The translations under genes were made by a program, and so were the position numbers. Below the pieces are notes generated by a model. The model ran no database searches. It had not been told where the DNA came from and saw nothing but the letters and a program-made list of their open reading frames with translations. From Plicaturopsis crispa FD-325 SS-3 (Eukaryota; Basidiomycota; Agaricomycetes; Amylocorticiales; Amylocorticiaceae), in contig KN832565.1 of the NCBI GenBank assembly GCA_000827205.1, forward strand, positions 783,639 through 847,638: DNA of 64,000 nt, in the 5' to 3' direction. This document shows, one piece after another, positions 21,390 to 48,636 of this stretch. The stretch's first letter is position 1. Every line of letters starts with the position of its first letter.

Positions 21390-23454
21390 ATGTCTTCCAC
21401 GCCCACTGATACCGCGACCACCTCTACATCCGCCGAAACTTCGTCATCTACACCGACGTCGACTTCTCAAACGTCGGAATCCACAAATACCGCTACGTCT
21501 TCACCGACAACATCTGCGGCTCCGACGTCCTCTGCTACCCCGACATCCTCTGCCACCCCGACGTCGGCTTCACCTACCACTTCTTCCCCCACGACTATGT
21601 CCTCAGCGCCTTCGAGTTCCGAGCCGACCTCCACTGCCCCTGCCTCGTGAGTAAACCCGCAATCTATTTGCGTGTTTCTAACCTTATCGTATGCAACAGA
21701 ACCTCCGCATCCCCATCCGCCACCACGTCTAGCGAAGCGAGCACACAGCCGTCTGCTGCCCCATCCTCTGCTGCCCCGTCGTCTGCCGCCCCGTCGACTA
21801 GCATGGCATCGTCTGGCGCGAGTCCGACGTCCGCGAGTCCAACGACTACCTCTCAGTCGTCCATTACTACGACCTCGCCCACGACTACGTCGCCCACTAC
21901 AACCTCGCCCACTACAACCTCGCCGACGACTACATCTCCGACAACTACGTCCCCGACCACTACATCTCCCACCACTACATCTCCGACAACCACATCCCCG
22001 ACTACTACGTCCCCGACCACCACAAGTCCTACCACCACGCCTACGACGACCCAGCAGACCACTACTCAGGTCACTACCACTACCCAGGACCCGTCTACTT
22101 CGACACCGACTGCAACTACGAGCAGCACCGATGCGCCTTCCCGCAGCACCTCGGTTGTAGTGGTCACTGGATCAAGTACGAACACTGCAAGCACGGGCGG
22201 AGGGAGTACGAATGTGGTAGTCGCAACGTGAGATTCCATTTTGCTTCACGATACCCAAGTAAATCCGTCTAAATGAAATTTATTTTATCAGGTCCACGCT
22301 TCAGAGCACTGTGTTCGTTACGACCACAAATAGCAACGGGCAAACGTTAACGACTGCCCCGTCTGTGATAACGCAAACGTCTACCTCGACTGGGTCAAAC
22401 GGTGCACTGTCCACGGTCACGCAAGTGGTCGCAAATCCTACTTTGAGTCCAAATAACCAGAACTCAAAAAGTGCAGCGTGAGTCGTTAACCTGAAATTAC
22501 CGTGAACAGCAATTTTTAGTGCGTTCAATGCCTGCTGTAGTTTCTTCCGCAATAAGGGTGCCGTCGCAGGGGTTTTTGTATTGGTCGGTCTTGCCATCGC
22601 ATCCATTGCGTTATTCGTCATCTTCGCCATCCGGCGGCGGCGGCGAAATCAACGCATCGAGCACGACAGCGCAGTCTCCGCAACGCTTGCCGCCGCCGGC
22701 TTCAACCGCGCGCCTCTCGACGACGACGAAGAGCGGGGCCCAAGCACCGGCCCACATACGTCGAAATACGGCTCCAGCACCGGCGAGATGGGCCAGCGCT
22801 CGAGCTCGGGGCTCGCCATCGGCACCGGCTCCGGGGTCATACTCCCGGAGGTCCAGCGCACGCCGGACAGCTACTGGGACATCAACGACCCGCACCAAGG
22901 CCAAGGTGGGCCGCCTGACGGCGACGGCGGATTCAACCCGTACGCGGACTATATCGCGGCGGGCCCGGGACGCAACGGATATGTGCCTACGCGCACGCAG
23001 AGCCCGCCGCCCGACGGGCATAGGTACAACGACAGCGCGGACGAGCGGTCGGGGCATGCGGCGACGCCGAGTGCGGGGAGCATCGAGCCGCTGCTCGCGG
23101 GCTACAATGCGCGTGCTGCAGCGTCGCCACCGCCGCCGCCGCCGCGGAACCCTGCACGGGTATCTAGTGACGGGAAAAGGCCGGGGATCGTGGTGCACCC
23201 GTCCTCGGGGACGTCGTCGGAGAGTACGGGGGATGATAGGCTGGATCCGGGGCTGAGGCAACAGCGGCAGGGGGACGAAGGCAGCATCCACAGCAATCTG
23301 CGAGATGATGCGGACTATTCTCGACCTGTTCTTGGGGTGCGTTCTTTCTTCCCGCTTGTTTATTTTGTTTTTTTGCAACTAACAATGTCGTATGATTCCC
23401 TAGGTGCGAAATCTACCGGATGGACACAGTGCTGTCTCTGTCAACACTACCTAG
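21390..23454 (+). CDS. Mucin-like single-pass membrane protein (putative surface sensor)
   Basis: The extracellular part (about 320 residues) is almost entirely Ser, Thr, Pro and Ala, a dense O-glycosylation substrate, and includes eleven exact SPTTT repeats (21875-22039). A less repetitive Ser/Thr/Val block follows (TQTSTSTGSNGALSTVTQVV). One membrane helix (about 22565-22625, GVFVLVGLAIASIALFVIFA) precedes a basic stop-transfer IRRRRRNQR. The cytoplasmic tail (about 250 aa) is rich in Pro, Gly and Asp, with PPPPPP and SPPPDGHRYNDSADE. A last intron (about 23337-23403) joins GGG to VRNLPDGHSAVSVNTT and TAG 23452-23454; if retained, the frame would run to 23957. No N-terminal signal peptide is visible, so an upstream exon or signal-anchor insertion must be considered. 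Architecture resembles Msb2/Wsc-type or other Agaricomycete surface glycoproteins; function unproven. Confidence 0.75.
21875..22039 (+). repeat. 15-bp coding minisatellite (SPTTT x11)
   Basis: Eleven tandem 15-bp units, each encoding Ser-Pro-Thr-Thr-Thr, with synonymous variation (TCG/TCT/TCC/AGT for Ser). The reverse strand is open throughout as a 69-residue Val/Gly repeat, which is a shadow and not a gene. Confidence 0.95.
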
Positions 23455-24161
23455 CGTTGGCGTTCTCTTGTTTCTTTTTCTTTCATGGTCGTTCTTCTCG
23501 GTCCGCTATAGCTATCTACTGGCTCTCTCCGCTGTCCTTCCTGCATTCATTGATTGCTTTGATCCTAAAAACATCTTGGACATCGTGCACACCCCTGGGA
23601 CACTCACTCGTTTCTTCACCGCCACGCACTCATAGAACTTCAACCAACCATTCACGAACACACGGACTTACTCCTCTTGCCATTCGCGTAGCCCACCCGC
23701 GGACGCCACCTTGCTTCTACTTACCTACCTACCCTGTTGAGTGTATACCAGTAACCAGACGACCACCCGTATTGCATGCATCCCTTGCTATAGAGCCCAG
23801 TAGGATATACTTTTACTCGTCGTATCGAGCGCACGTATTGCTCGACGTTCTGCAATATTTATGCCCGAAGACGGCCAATGCGAGTGCATTCATAACTTAT
23901 CAGCTGCCACCACAAAAGGACACAGTCCGAGAAACCCGTCGATTATCTAGCATATGAGAAAGAAGGTGGGAGGCCAGCATAGCCAGTGCGTAGGATAGGC
24001 GGTGAAAATAAAAAATCGCGGCGACTGTAACGCGTACGGTGGGGGTTATACATAGGTGGGTGTATGTCGGACGGGTGATATCGATATAGTAAATCAGATG
24101 CGCGGCGCGAAGGGGAAGTAAATGGAGGGGTATGCCAAGAGAGAAATCGCAAGAGTCCCAA
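23455..24161. other. Convergent 3' region, mucin-like gene / ERF4
   Basis: About 700 bp between convergent stop codons. T-rich stretches (23340-23500) and no supported gene. A read-through frame from the mucin gene crosses it but has no family resemblance. Confidence 0.5.
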
Positions 24162-43960: not shown

Positions 43961-46272
43961 ATGGGTCCTCGGGCGAATGCACCGATCATCTTCCTCACGT
44001 TGCTAGCCTACTTTATTGGCCAGGGTCATGTTCTCGCAAAACTTGACCCCCGCGAGGCATCATCCGCCAGTACTCTATACGTGCCCCTTCGTCTCGACGA
44101 GAACCAGCGATATATAGCTGCTGTCAATATGGTGCGCCCCAACCAATTTTACACCAATAAAACGCTCATACCGTCTGTAGTCCTCTAATCCAGGTCAACA
44201 TCTGGGCTTTATATTAAGCACGAGTACCGGTCTTAGTGCCGTTGCGGGAGTTGGATGTGATTCCTGTGATGGCGCACCTGTGTACGTTCTTTGGACCAGC
44301 ATGTGCTGAAATTACATATGCTCATGCGCGTGCACTCAGGTATAACATGACAAAGTCTACGAGCGCGAAGCATCTGCCCTCCGCCGGAACTGTCCAATTG
44401 TTCAATGGGACAGCACAGGGTCCACAAATTAGCGAGGATTGTGCTCTGCTTCAGGCAAACGGGTCGACGTGGAAGTACCCGAATCAAACGCGTGCGCACC
44501 CTATATAACATTCGTGCTTTGACGATGCATTCTAAAACGCAATGTCCTGCATCTGGTAGTTCTCATGGTCGAGCAATCCAGCGCTATGTTCTCCTCTACT
44601 GGGAGCGGCATCTTCGGTTTGGGCACCAACAGTCAACAAGGCAACTTTTCGGATACCGTCATCGGAGGCTTTTTTAGACGCAACCCCAATCAATCCCAGT
44701 TCTCCTTCGGAATGGCCTTGAACCCTCCGAACAGCGATCCTAATGATGCGGGCATGTTACACTGGCTTGCGCCCGATGCAAATTCTTACCAGGGCTCGGT
44801 GTCCTACAAAGAGGCGTTCTCGACCGGCGGCACCAATTCTACCTTGAGCTCCGACTGGACTTTTCAACTCGACAGCTGGTCATTCGCGACGGGTGACAAG
44901 AATATCACGTCCACCAACAACAGCATGCAGGCGATACCCGACCCATACTATGTTAATACGTATCTGCCGTTGGATCAGGCTCGTCTGATATGTGGGTCTG
45001 CTGTTACCCTCCAAAGACCAACCCTGATCTAACGAATTCCTGTAGATGACAGCGTCCCCGGGGCTGTTGCTCAAGAAACGTCGACAAATGGCACAGAATC
45101 GTGGACCGTGCCATGCAACACGGACATGGCTTTCTCCGTGACCATCAACAGTCAAACGTTCACCCTCGACCAATTTGTACTTCTGTCCTCGGAGAATGGG
45201 GTTTGCGTTGGCGTGATCCAAGGCATAACTACCTCACAGTATATATTCGGGTCTAGCCTTCTCAGTGCGATGTATTTGTGCGTGAAACTAGTGTCTTTAT
45301 TTTCTCTAGTACTGATTACGACCTAGAATATTCACTGTGGCACTCTCTGGAGACGCTTCGTCAAACTCGATTGGATTTGCCTTCCGCAGCGTGAACCAGA
45401 AAGCGTCAACCGCCCTCATCGTCGGCGCCACGGTCGGTAGCATTGGTGTCGCCGCATTTATTGCTATTGCCGTTATCCTCGGCCTGCATCTGCGACGGCG
45501 AAAGCGCAAACCAGCCCGCATCAGCCCAATGGCACGTCTGTATCGACCTACTATGCTGTTTTCGCCTTCGGGACCTGGAGAATTCGCGCCTTTGATGGGG
45601 CATGATCTAGTGGCCGTCTCGCCAGATTTCCACCCCCCGTATCCGTACGCTGTCGTGTCGCCCGACCCTCGCGCCCACGCTCCTTCTCCTTTCCATTCAC
45701 CCAGCTCGTCGGTCCTCGACATCCGACCTCCATCGTCAGCGATGTCCATAGTGGAGAGGAATTCGGAGAATTTAATGGTTAATTTCGACCGTGCCCGTTC
45801 TCCCCACTCTATTCACTCAGCGACCGCCGAGGGAGCCCGTCACCAGCAAAATTCTTCCTTGCAAGACCACGACGACTTGACGACTGAAGAGTACGAACTG
45901 CCAGCACCGCCGTCATCCTCTGACCACCACCCACGAAACGAGAAACGGAGCGAACAGGATACTTCTATTGAGCCGTTTGTCCTACAGTCGCCTCCATTCA
46001 ATCGAGACAGACCCAAGAAACGCCGCGTCTTGGATCCCGCACCTGTTATCTCTTCAAGCTACAACGCGCCTTCGCCGACGGCTGTCGCGTCTGATGCTGC
46101 TACCATTGCCCCTACCCTCGCCGACGGATCGTCATTGGCCGCGACCTCTCCGACTGTGCGGCACAGCACGGCAGCTACAAGATATTCGTCGCAGGTCAGC
46201 TTGTCGGCCACACTTGTCACGGAAAATCCGATACCGCCAGGTTATACTCGGCGACCACCGAAATGGGGTTGA
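43961..46272 (+). CDS. Membrane-anchored aspartic-protease-fold protein, catalytic motifs degraded
   Basis: The signal peptide (MGPRANAPIIFLTLLAYFIG) is followed by a pepsin-like ectodomain and one membrane helix (about 45410-45480, ALIVGATVGSIGVAAFIAIA). The basic anchor RRRKRKP leads to a ~250-residue Ser/Pro-rich cytoplasmic tail ending YTRRPPKWG. Early exons join as VNM + SSNPGQHLGFILSTSTGLSA, then CDSCDGAPVYNMTKSTSA (donor GTACGT at about 44282, acceptor about 44340). Pepsin landmarks remain: GIFGLGTNS, YLPLDQARLIYDSVPGA and SLLSAMYL. At the first active-site position LSTSTG replaces the usual V-D-T-G-S. At the second, AIPDPYYVNTYLPL replaces A-x-x-D-T-G-T. Many N-glycosylation sequons. 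Likely a non-enzymatic surface protein. It converges with the repeat-peptide gene at 46.9-47.2 kb. Confidence 0.75.
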
Positions 46273-46862
46273 TGGGAAGCAGGGGACTTCGTTGCGTGGA
46301 CTATACGCAGGACATATAATATTTACGATACATAGTGGTTTCACGCCATGACATTTTATTTCGTAGTACATACAGTATGCCATAACCAAGTGTAATATGC
46401 TCCCAGCTGGATGGATTACCTTGTTTCGACTACTCGAGAAGACCGTCTCGCGATACGACTGCGTCCCACGCGTACAGGAGTGACAGTCGAATCTGTTCCA
46501 GTTTCGACGTCAAAATCATTCGCCAGTGTAGAGATTGGTACGTATGCCCGAACAGTGTGTTCGCCGAGCTCAAGGAGTGGTGTCACGGTGGTCGTCGAGA
46601 CACGAAAAAGACACTCATGAGGGTGGAAACTATCCCGAGTCCCCGATTTGCTTCAGGGGATAACGGACAATGAGCTTGAGATTCCACTCCCCTCCTAACC
46701 CGACATACAACAGTAAGTAAAGACAGACTGCGACACCCTATAATCCTGTTGCAAAGAATGCTGGTCAGGGATTTGATTAAGCTTGACATGGAAAAGGATT
46801 TACCATCAAAGTCCAAATTCTATCCAGGTTTTCACTTAGGATGCCCTCGACGCGTGGCGAAA
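46273..46862. other. Convergent intergenic region
   Basis: 590 bp between the pseudoprotease stop and the repeat-peptide stop. Short frames exist on both strands, but none shows family resemblance or splice structure. Confidence 0.45.
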
Positions 46863-47223
46863 TCAAAGTATTGAGACGACGTTGTCGTCGAGGATGTCGG
46901 AAATGTCGATGGGGATGTCGATACCATCGCGCTTCAAGATGGAGACGTTGTTGTCGTCGAGGATGTCGGTAATATCGATGGGGATGTCGATACCGTCGCG
47001 CTTCAAGATGGAGACGGTGTTCCCGTCGAGAATGCAGTTCACGTCGATGGGGATGTTGATGCCTATGAAACAGAACTGTTAAGTGGACTGCTGTCTATCG
47101 GGCAATAATGTGGGCTAGCATACCATCACGTTTGCAGTTCGAGCTGGGAGAGCCCCACGGGGCAGCAGACGCGCTGAGCGCGAGAGCAGCGATAGCGAAG
47201 GCGGCAGTGATGAAGGAACGCAT
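46863..47223 (-). CDS. Small secreted precursor with three KR-delimited repeats (Kex2-processed repeat type)
   Basis: Two exons, 47223-47124 and 47062-46863, joined by a GT-AG intron (GTATGC...CATAG), give exactly 300 nt and 99 aa. Residues 1-20 form a clean signal peptide (MRSFITAAFAIAALALSASA) with A-x-A before APWGSPSSNC. Then come three 23-residue repeats, each beginning with the dibasic Kex2 site K-R at residues 31-32, 54-55 and 77-78. Each repeat reads KRDGI, then N or D, IPID, a variable triplet, ILD and a variable stretch ending VSIL. Repeats 2 and 3 are nearly identical (ITDILDDNN vs ISDILDDNV). Repeat 1 is more divergent and carries a Cys; another Cys precedes the first KR. Kex2 cutting would release three acidic, Ile-rich peptides of about 21 residues. 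Such precursors are known in fungi as repellent/pheromone-like or RiPP-type. No tailoring enzyme is adjacent. Function unknown. Confidence 0.85.
46866..47062 (-). repeat. 69-bp coding repeat, units 2-3 and partial unit 1
   Basis: Tandem 69-bp units encode the 23-residue peptide repeat. Units at about 46866-46934 and 46935-47003 are near-identical (AAGCGCGAYGGTATCGACAT start on the minus strand). Unit 1 (47004-47062, plus the end of exon 1) is diverged. Exon 2 begins inside unit 1, so the intron interrupts the first repeat just after KRD. Confidence 0.9.
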
Positions 47224-48636
47224 TGTGACAAGAGGGTGGGGGCGGGGATAGGAATTAGAGAGAGGAATGGAGATAGACGCTTTCGACTCAAGACCTAAAG
47301 CCGTGATGAAGAAAACGCAGTCGACAAGGGAATGCCTTTATACGATTGCAGCCTCCACCCAGGGAAAGCTGTCCGTGGCATGAAACGCTAGAGGTATGGC
47401 TTCCATGCGCGCTGTTGTCTGTTGTCCTGCCTTCTTGTTTTCCCCGTCTGGCATGGCAGCGAATGAGAATACCAAGAGGGTGGCTTCTGGGGAGTGCGTG
47501 TGAAGGACCGCATACCTTTGACGTTTGCGAGCGTCCTGCAGCACGGCAGACGGGCGAGAAAATGTATCACAACAGCGACTTCTCAACAGCGCGTGTGGGG
47601 TTCAGCGCATATGAGGATCTAGACAAAAGTGCAAGTCGCTTACCATTGGACTGCACACAAACTGCACGGGTTACTTTTTTGCCGCGCATGGAGGTGCACG
47701 CCGGTCGGTGCATTGGTCGCCGCCTCTGGTGACGAGCATCGCGAAGTCGCAATTGAGCGTTTTATCACCGATTTGGCACGGTCGAAACAATCTGAAGGAC
47801 ATTCCGGACCCGGTATTAGTTTCAATTGTGGAAGCATCGCCGGATGAGCGAGACGCCGACATATGTTTCGAAAGAAACTACACAGCGACTGTCATGGAAA
47901 GAGTCCGACAAACATCGATGCATACTGGGTTAAATGATCCTGTACGAAATGTCATCAGAGCTCTGGACAGCGCGGGAAATGAACCAAGCAAAAGGTTTTG
48001 AATGTTTTCACGCGCGATTTAGAAGTTGTGCGAGCGTTAAGGAGGCGTTAAGAAAGATCTAATGGCGCGCTAGCGTACCAGAAGTCATCGTGACCACCAG
48101 TAGGAATCGTCGCCAACTAAGAGGCTCAGTACTCAAAAACAGATAGAAAACACACACGGTGCGCCATTTCAGGTCCTTGTGACGCGCACAGACGACGCCC
48201 AAGCCCCACATGCGCTAGCGGGGCTTGCATTAAGATAAGTGGACGCCAGGCGTTGGCCACGGGTGCTTCGCAGAAAGTCGTCAGCGCTTCCGCGCGCGTC
48301 CCGAATGTTTCCTCGTGAACAAGCAGCAGTGAGAACAAATATCTCTAGCGTTTCTTGGGCGTTTCTTGCAATATTGATGCTCATGTGGGCAAGATCGCAA
48401 GCCATGACAAGCGTTTTAGATATTAGCCATATGTAGTTGAGCTCGAAAGATCTGCAGACGATGGCAAGACATTGGCGGCGAGTGAGGTGGAAAGAGCGTG
48501 AGAAACTGTACAGTACCAAGTGACGGTGGCTTGGCGATGCCGGGACTTTGCCGAGGCTACCCAATCGGACGCGCGCAAAGTTCAAGTTCCTCGTCGCCGT
48601 ATCTCCCGTTCCCCTCTCCTCCTCAAGACTCCAGCC
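47224..48636. other. Intergenic, no supported gene
   Basis: 1.4 kb. The part next to 47224 should hold the repeat-peptide promoter and the part next to 48637 the RPS11 promoter. The CT-rich tract CGTTCCCCTCTCCTCCTC at about 48607-48625 is typical of ribosomal-protein start regions. Frames of 60-140 aa exist but look random. Confidence 0.45.

Follow-up and report, generated by a model that had tools for sequence, protein, structure and literature searches.

On the minus strand of a 64,000-nt stretch of Plicaturopsis crispa DNA (the window), positions 46,863–47,223 hold a small gene, here gene A, whose predicted 99-aa product carries three repeats parted by KR. What would such a precursor release, and what might its peptides do? 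As a whole explanation, we lean towards a Kex2-processed repeat precursor from a six-gene family, in which a head peptide and the first repeat unit would be joined by a disulfide and the units would assemble at a surface. The precursor reads as a new member of the described class of KEX2-processed repeat proteins (KEPs), and its processing is likely.

Anatomy of gene A and its predicted processing

Re-reading of the minus strand from 47,223 to 46,863, ATG to TGA, gave the same coordinates and the same two-exon, 99-aa anatomy as a first-pass annotation of this DNA. Exon 1 (47,124–47,223) encodes a predicted signal peptide, the head peptide, a KR site and the first bases of unit 1; a 61-nt GT..AG intron in phase 1 (47,063–47,123) lies at the unit start, and exon 2 (46,863–47,062) holds the remainder of unit 1, units 2 and 3 and the stop codon. 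The unspliced frame (47,337–47,095) runs for eight extra codons past DG and then stops, so splicing is required, and the predicted splice is supported by the introns of paralogues B, C, D and E, which sit alike at unit starts in the same phase.

The first 20 residues (47,164–47,223) are hydrophobic (mean hydropathy 1.54) and end in SASA followed by AP, where the signal peptide would be cleaved. They are followed by the head peptide APWGSPSSNC (residues 21–30; 47,134–47,163), KR site 1 (residues 31–32; 47,128–47,133), unit 1 with Cys43 and KR site 2 (residues 33–55; 46,998–47,127, interrupted by the intron), unit 2 with KR site 3 (residues 56–78; 46,929–46,997) and the C-terminal unit 3 (residues 79–99; 46,866–46,928), all on the minus strand. 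Units 1 and 2 are flanked by KR on both sides and unit 3 lies between KR and the C terminus. With KR at residues 31–32, 54–55 and 77–78, the units, of 21–23 residues each, start at residues 33, 56 and 79, a spacing of 23 and 23. This period, pointed out in the first-pass annotation, withstood a shuffling control: when the 79 residues that follow residue 20 were shuffled 200,000 times, three or more KR arose once and three equally spaced KR never. The near-identity of repeats 2 and 3 described there was likewise borne out, with 19 of 21 residues agreeing.

Between units 2 and 3, five codon differences are synonymous and two are non-synonymous. Over 67 codons, gene A and paralogue B differ with dN 0.29 and dS 0.93, and dN was lower than dS in all four single-unit comparisons (A1–B1, A1–D11, B1–D11 and E1–E13). 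These values are signs that selection acts on the protein of this family.

In the proposed processing, the signal peptide would send the precursor to secretion, where kexin would cut after each KR and a carboxypeptidase would trim the KR, giving the head peptide and three acidic 21-mers. We hold these steps jointly with high confidence. A kexin gene encoding an S8 peptidase with a P domain is present on contig C7.

A six-gene family in three places

Queried against its own genome (33.2 Mb, 49 contigs), the gene A protein gave 24 matches, all within six genes (A–F). The same six genes were recovered with a composite query built from paralogue E (21 matches) and with paralogue C as the query (15 matches); further, more distant members may exist. 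The six genes occupy three places: A shares a contig with B and C, which lie about 60 and 64 kb off, and D, E and F stand consecutively on contig C14 (267.5–274.5 kb). In gene models fitted by eye to the sequence alone, on the basis of splice signals and the register of the repeats, genes A to F contain 3, 6, 5, 14, 17 and 8 units, respectively, 53 in total.

All 11 introns within repeat regions (one each in A, B and C, six in D and two in E) are in phase 1 at a unit start. Ten of them split the Gly codon that opens the unit and intron 6 of gene D splits the next codon; paralogue F contains no intron within its repeat region. A TATAWA box is found at −106 to −126 from the ATG in each of the six genes (TATAAA at 47,337–47,342, minus strand, −119, for gene A), against a chance of 2.5% in a random 61-nt stretch of the window plus strand.

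In gene D (L011:2001–3509), internal exons of 216, 144, 144 and 144 nt encode exactly 3, 2, 2 and 2 whole 24-residue units, each bounded by phase-1 introns on either side, which suggests growth by exon duplication. The fifth internal exon, of 126 nt, encodes one unit and an internal head.

A head peptide matched by a single cysteine

The region between the signal peptide and the first unit contains [AV]PWG[SA], a Cys and KR in A, B, D and E. Two of these genes, D and E, carry a WGSHP..C head a second time in mid-protein, right after SKR; next come a phase-1 intron and a unit with a Cys. In gene E, the nucleotide sequences of the two heads agree at 38 of 45 nt counted from the Trp codon, compared with 11 of 30 nt in the stretch preceding that codon. 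Every unit directly after a Cys-bearing head carries one Cys (six of six), and none of the 47 other units does (Fisher p = 4e-8, for related genes whose events are not independent). Gene C, with a head lacking Cys, and gene F, with no head, have no Cys in their units either.

This perfect co-occurrence leads us to propose a disulfide that links the head to the first unit. The head Cys of gene A would bond the Cys of unit 1 to give a two-chain peptide, and units 2 and 3 would be free Cys-less chains; we consider the chances that the two are so linked evenly balanced. The first-pass annotation had set unit 1 apart and paired its Cys with the one just before it, a reading that now gains support across the family. 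The mature head of gene A is probably WGSPSSNC: the internal heads of D and E start at W after KR, suggesting that a Ste13-type dipeptidase would strip AP from the N-terminal head. A DPPIV/Ste13-type gene, so named by predicted type only, lies on contig C13. The calculated monoisotopic neutral masses are 2197.130 for unit 1, 2282.153 for unit 2, 2253.163 for unit 3 and 836.312 for the head WGSPSSNC; head and unit 1 joined by a disulfide would have a mass of 3031.427. At the level of the predicted proteins, the Cys-matched head and first unit, with reuse of the head internally in two paralogues, is the distinctive trait of the family.

Unit shape and a possible surface role

When the register of gene A was applied throughout, residues 3, 5, 7 and 9 were more hydrophobic than residues 4, 6, 8 and 10 in every gene, and residues 18 and 20 more so than 17 and 19. 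For the 50 units of B–F, this fixed-register alternation reached z = 13.8 at positions 3–10 and z = 11.7 at positions 17–20 against within-unit shuffles, both inflated because related units were treated as independent. The weakest result, the second contrast in gene A itself, was matched by 47 of 5,000 shuffles. Between the two alternating stretches lies D/N-x-N at positions 14–16, and the unit reads as a strand, an Asp/Asn-rich turn and a second strand.

A free-register moment test gave mean z values of 2.3 for A, about 1 for B and D, 0.3 for C, 0.5 for F and −0.3 for E. Averaged over the 53 units, z was 0.54 at 180 degrees (nine above 1.64) and 0.82 at 100 degrees, the helical angle (none above 1.64), so that this test, taken by itself, would give strand no preference over helix. 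The beta-type assembly proposed in the first-pass annotation is thus upheld by the fixed-register alternation, seen in six of six genes, but the free-register test is clear only in gene A. A single-sequence AlphaFold model of gene A exon 2 alone (pLDDT 44) was uninformative either way.

In the final step proposed here, the strand-turn-strand units would build a surface-active, beta-rich layer on hyphae, as the Rep1 repellents of Ustilago do. Such assembly is preferred because the units keep the strand-turn-strand pattern; by analogy it is our leading guess, unproven and somewhat short of an even chance, and signalling is possible. The genome also encodes hydrophobins (at least two matches), so the coat role is not vacant, and six KEP knockouts in Coprinopsis are reported to have had no phenotype (PMC9769878).

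That the released 21-mers are instead secreted signals or biotic-interaction peptides, directed at a receptor or at other organisms, strikes us as rather unlikely. Alpha-type pheromones and interaction peptides are reported to be KEPs (PMC6339444 and PMC9769878), and the predicted 21-mers are small and acidic (pI 4.05), but they are also rather hydrophobic overall (GRAVY 0.35 to 0.77). Moreover, the units vary widely within and between genes at non-aliphatic positions, with the hydropathy pattern and the turn kept, and such divergence would suit bulk assembly better than it would a ligand for a receptor.

Junctions across the family

The Kex2-type reading of the first-pass annotation is supported by Arg at the P1 position of 52 of 52 junctions, in addition to the kexin gene, although this constancy follows in part from the definition of a unit by a start motif after Arg. 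Units are spaced by 22 to 26 residues except at two places with an internal head, leaving no gap for any unit without Arg. The P1 residue is encoded by CGC (28), CGT (18), CGG (4), AGG (1) and CGA (1), and is therefore kept while the DNA varies. At P2, Lys (24) is followed by Ser (15), Arg (5), Leu (4), Gly (3) and Glu (1), making 29 of 52 junctions dibasic: 3/3 in A, 4/6 in B, 4/5 in C, 11/14 in D, 7/17 in E and 0/7 in F. These counts refer to the site before each unit; KR before internal heads and before the C-terminal domain of F were counted apart.

Since the dibasic share falls from A to F, some relatives may stay uncut. By its junctions, gene A would be a plain dibasic precursor, and E and F, with mostly SR, LR or GR, would need single-Arg cleavage or stay linked. 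The first-pass annotation had held that homologues without conserved KR spacing would count against its reading: KR is regular in gene A, but strict KR spacing is not kept family-wide, E and F having mostly single Arg.

Could most of the family stay uncut, as a linked beta-solenoid or cell-wall repeat protein, with KR in gene A incidental? We regard this as distinctly unlikely. Besides the junctions of E and F, the latter without any dibasic site between units, it draws on the three matches to paralogue E among 7,998 candidates scored in a protein collection. The best of these, P0001, is a predicted beta-helix protein that aligns with 67% of paralogue E at 26% identity (E = 1.9e-6), and the E frame gave a weak Pfam beta-helix match under the curated cut-off (E = 0.0039). 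Against it stand the constancy of the P1 Arg through synonymous codon changes, the internal heads, which start exactly after KR, and the single-Arg cuts that Vogt and colleagues inferred for some apparent KEP products in Pichia (PMC9769878).

Returning to cleaved, assembling units, we can extend the proposal in a way that is itself unlikely in full. The Trp-led head with the Cys hairpin unit would act as a cap or nucleator for Cys-less units, one gene would fix the proportion of caps to fillers (1:2 in gene A, with more filler in the paralogues), and the paralogues would be graded from a fully cut A to an uncut F.

Relation to known systems

We file gene A as a KEP, a described class (Le Marquer 2019, Umemura 2020 and Vogt 2022), as its predicted product fits the general definition. 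In common with KEPs, it has a predicted signal peptide and compact tandem repeats parted by KR/RR; it lacks a UstYa neighbour, as do most KEPs (22% have one), and apparent single-Arg cuts are reported for KEPs, too. It differs in the Cys-matched head and first unit, in the internal reuse of the head, in an exon layout by which whole units alone make up four of the five internal exons of gene D, and in the want of a relative of the family in the protein collection searched.

The published rules treat so short a precursor differently. The Umemura rule, as the source states it, asks for at least three tandem repeats of at least 8 aa between Kex2 sites, and gene A fits if the C-terminal unit is counted, a comparison with the criteria and not with the published repeat scoring. 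In its published outline, the Le Marquer rule asks for at least four fragments after KR/RR cuts and then at least three alike, the C-terminal one being initially set aside; its authors describe the minimum of three as a guard against false positives. Gene A yields four KR/RR fragments (10, 21, 21 and 21 aa), and just two are alike before the C-terminal one, so this rule would probably miss it. KEPs are reported to be highly diverse, and 2,560 of 7,878 are given as stand-alone without homologues (PMC7329392); an orphan KEP family is therefore not unexpected.

The closest working model for the family, by analogy, would be the Rep1 repellent of Ustilago maydis, from which Kex2-cut amphipathic peptides are reported to form surface-active, amyloid-like fibrils (PMC4617103). 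Both precursors have amphipathic tandem repeats parted by Kex2 sites and are made for secretion. Rep1 has 12 repeats of 34–55 aa in 652 aa (PMC4617103), whereas gene A has three of 21–23 aa; and Rep1 forms fibrils, whereas the product of gene A is known from its gene alone and is likened to Rep1 by layout, not by sequence comparison.

Strands around a turn, together with Cys, also recall the Streptomyces chaplin ChpF, although chaplins are bacterial and gene A is fungal. The ChpF segment VVQVPVHIPVNVCGNTIDVI found its best ungapped match in one and the same register for 23 of 53 units, and 17 of 53 fit another register best. At p < 0.05, uncorrected, 11 of 53 units beat full shuffles and six of 53 beat pattern-preserving ones (300 shuffles each). 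The chaplin profile PF03777 had no match in the genome at E ≤ 10, nor did any of 14 control genomes give one over the cut-off, which leaves the search with no positive control; the chaplin family is absent from the Pfam families listed for the five proteins scanned. Membership in the chaplins was rejected, given the empty profile search and a motif likeness that is weak against pattern-preserving shuffles; the likeness is retained as a lead and, if anything, would be convergence on a strand-turn-strand unit.

Paralogue F (C14:273,218–274,509) has, C-terminal to its eight repeats, a hydrophobic domain some 167 residues long. In joining Kex-type repeats to a C-terminal domain it resembles Ustilago Hum3, which combines repeats with a hydrophobin domain, but the F protein matched no Pfam family at E ≤ 0.01 and so has no hydrophobin domain by Pfam; the likeness is one of layout only. 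A gene at about 50.2–51.3 kb on the same contig (L034:1719–2815) encodes a relative of the F domain (42% identity, query residues 27–122) behind different repeats, of the VGGVVNTVEGVAGG type, so the domain is common to two unlike repeat families.

Database searches and what the family offers

In the protein collection, none of 255 candidates matched gene A at E ≤ 1, and the six-sequence family alignment matched none of 7,993 candidates scored; as the collection is of uncertain fungal coverage, the lack of matches in it argues weakly for novelty. A full-text search of the literature, which covered running text and not figures or supplements, found none of six strings taken from the family's motifs. 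Among solved structures nothing credible was found (best E = 0.027, a dehydrogenase), and Rfam had no match at gathering score in window positions 46,000–48,000. One of the six family members matched a single unnamed PHROGs family (6e-5), which was taken as chance.

KEPs occur widely, and for most of them no function is known. The present family offers a concrete, testable design: a Cys head and a single Cys unit co-occur, the masses of the products can be predicted exactly, and cut sites, number of units and head vary among the paralogues. With it one could ask whether KEP peptides form a hyphal surface layer like that of Rep1, and whether the proportion of capping to filling chains can be fixed by a single precursor.

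Tailoring genes and the neighbourhood of gene A

An exon-wise search of the genome for UstYa gave six matches, on contigs C1, C10 and C4. As none lies on C12 or C14, the absence of a UstYa-like gene nearby, remarked on in the first-pass annotation, holds. PF00590, which we take to be the methylase profile of borosin type, gave one genome match, on C13. The window contains 42 frames of at least 180 aa, many of them antisense, and 16 were included in a Pfam scan. Five of the 16 gave matches (C2, DNA ligase C-terminal, TPR, protein phosphatase and DHFR) and 11 gave none; nothing in these 16 unspliced frames suggests tailoring.

Dikaritin cores, as far as is known, need an aromatic residue, and the three cores of gene A contain no Tyr, Phe or Trp. 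A dikaritin-type RiPP, with cores cyclised by UstYa-type enzymes, is very improbable for this reason and because none of the six UstYa matches is on C12 or C14 and the 16 frames scanned of the 42 listed, 11 of them matchless, show no tailoring domain, even though the KEP architecture is common to both, UstYa genes are present in the genome and DUF3328 genes are reported to accompany 22% of KEP genes (PMC7329392).

Two other parts of the window contain frames with membrane-spanning-looking stretches. The neighbour of gene A at 45,316–46,272 (plus strand) has one such stretch and a long polar tail, with no Pfam match at E ≤ 0.01. Farther off, a plus-strand frame at 21,410–22,231 with a long TTTSPTTTSP run is followed by another at 22,506–23,957 (plus strand), which has a membrane-spanning-looking stretch and no Pfam match at E ≤ 0.001; together, the two look like a mucin-like cell-surface protein.
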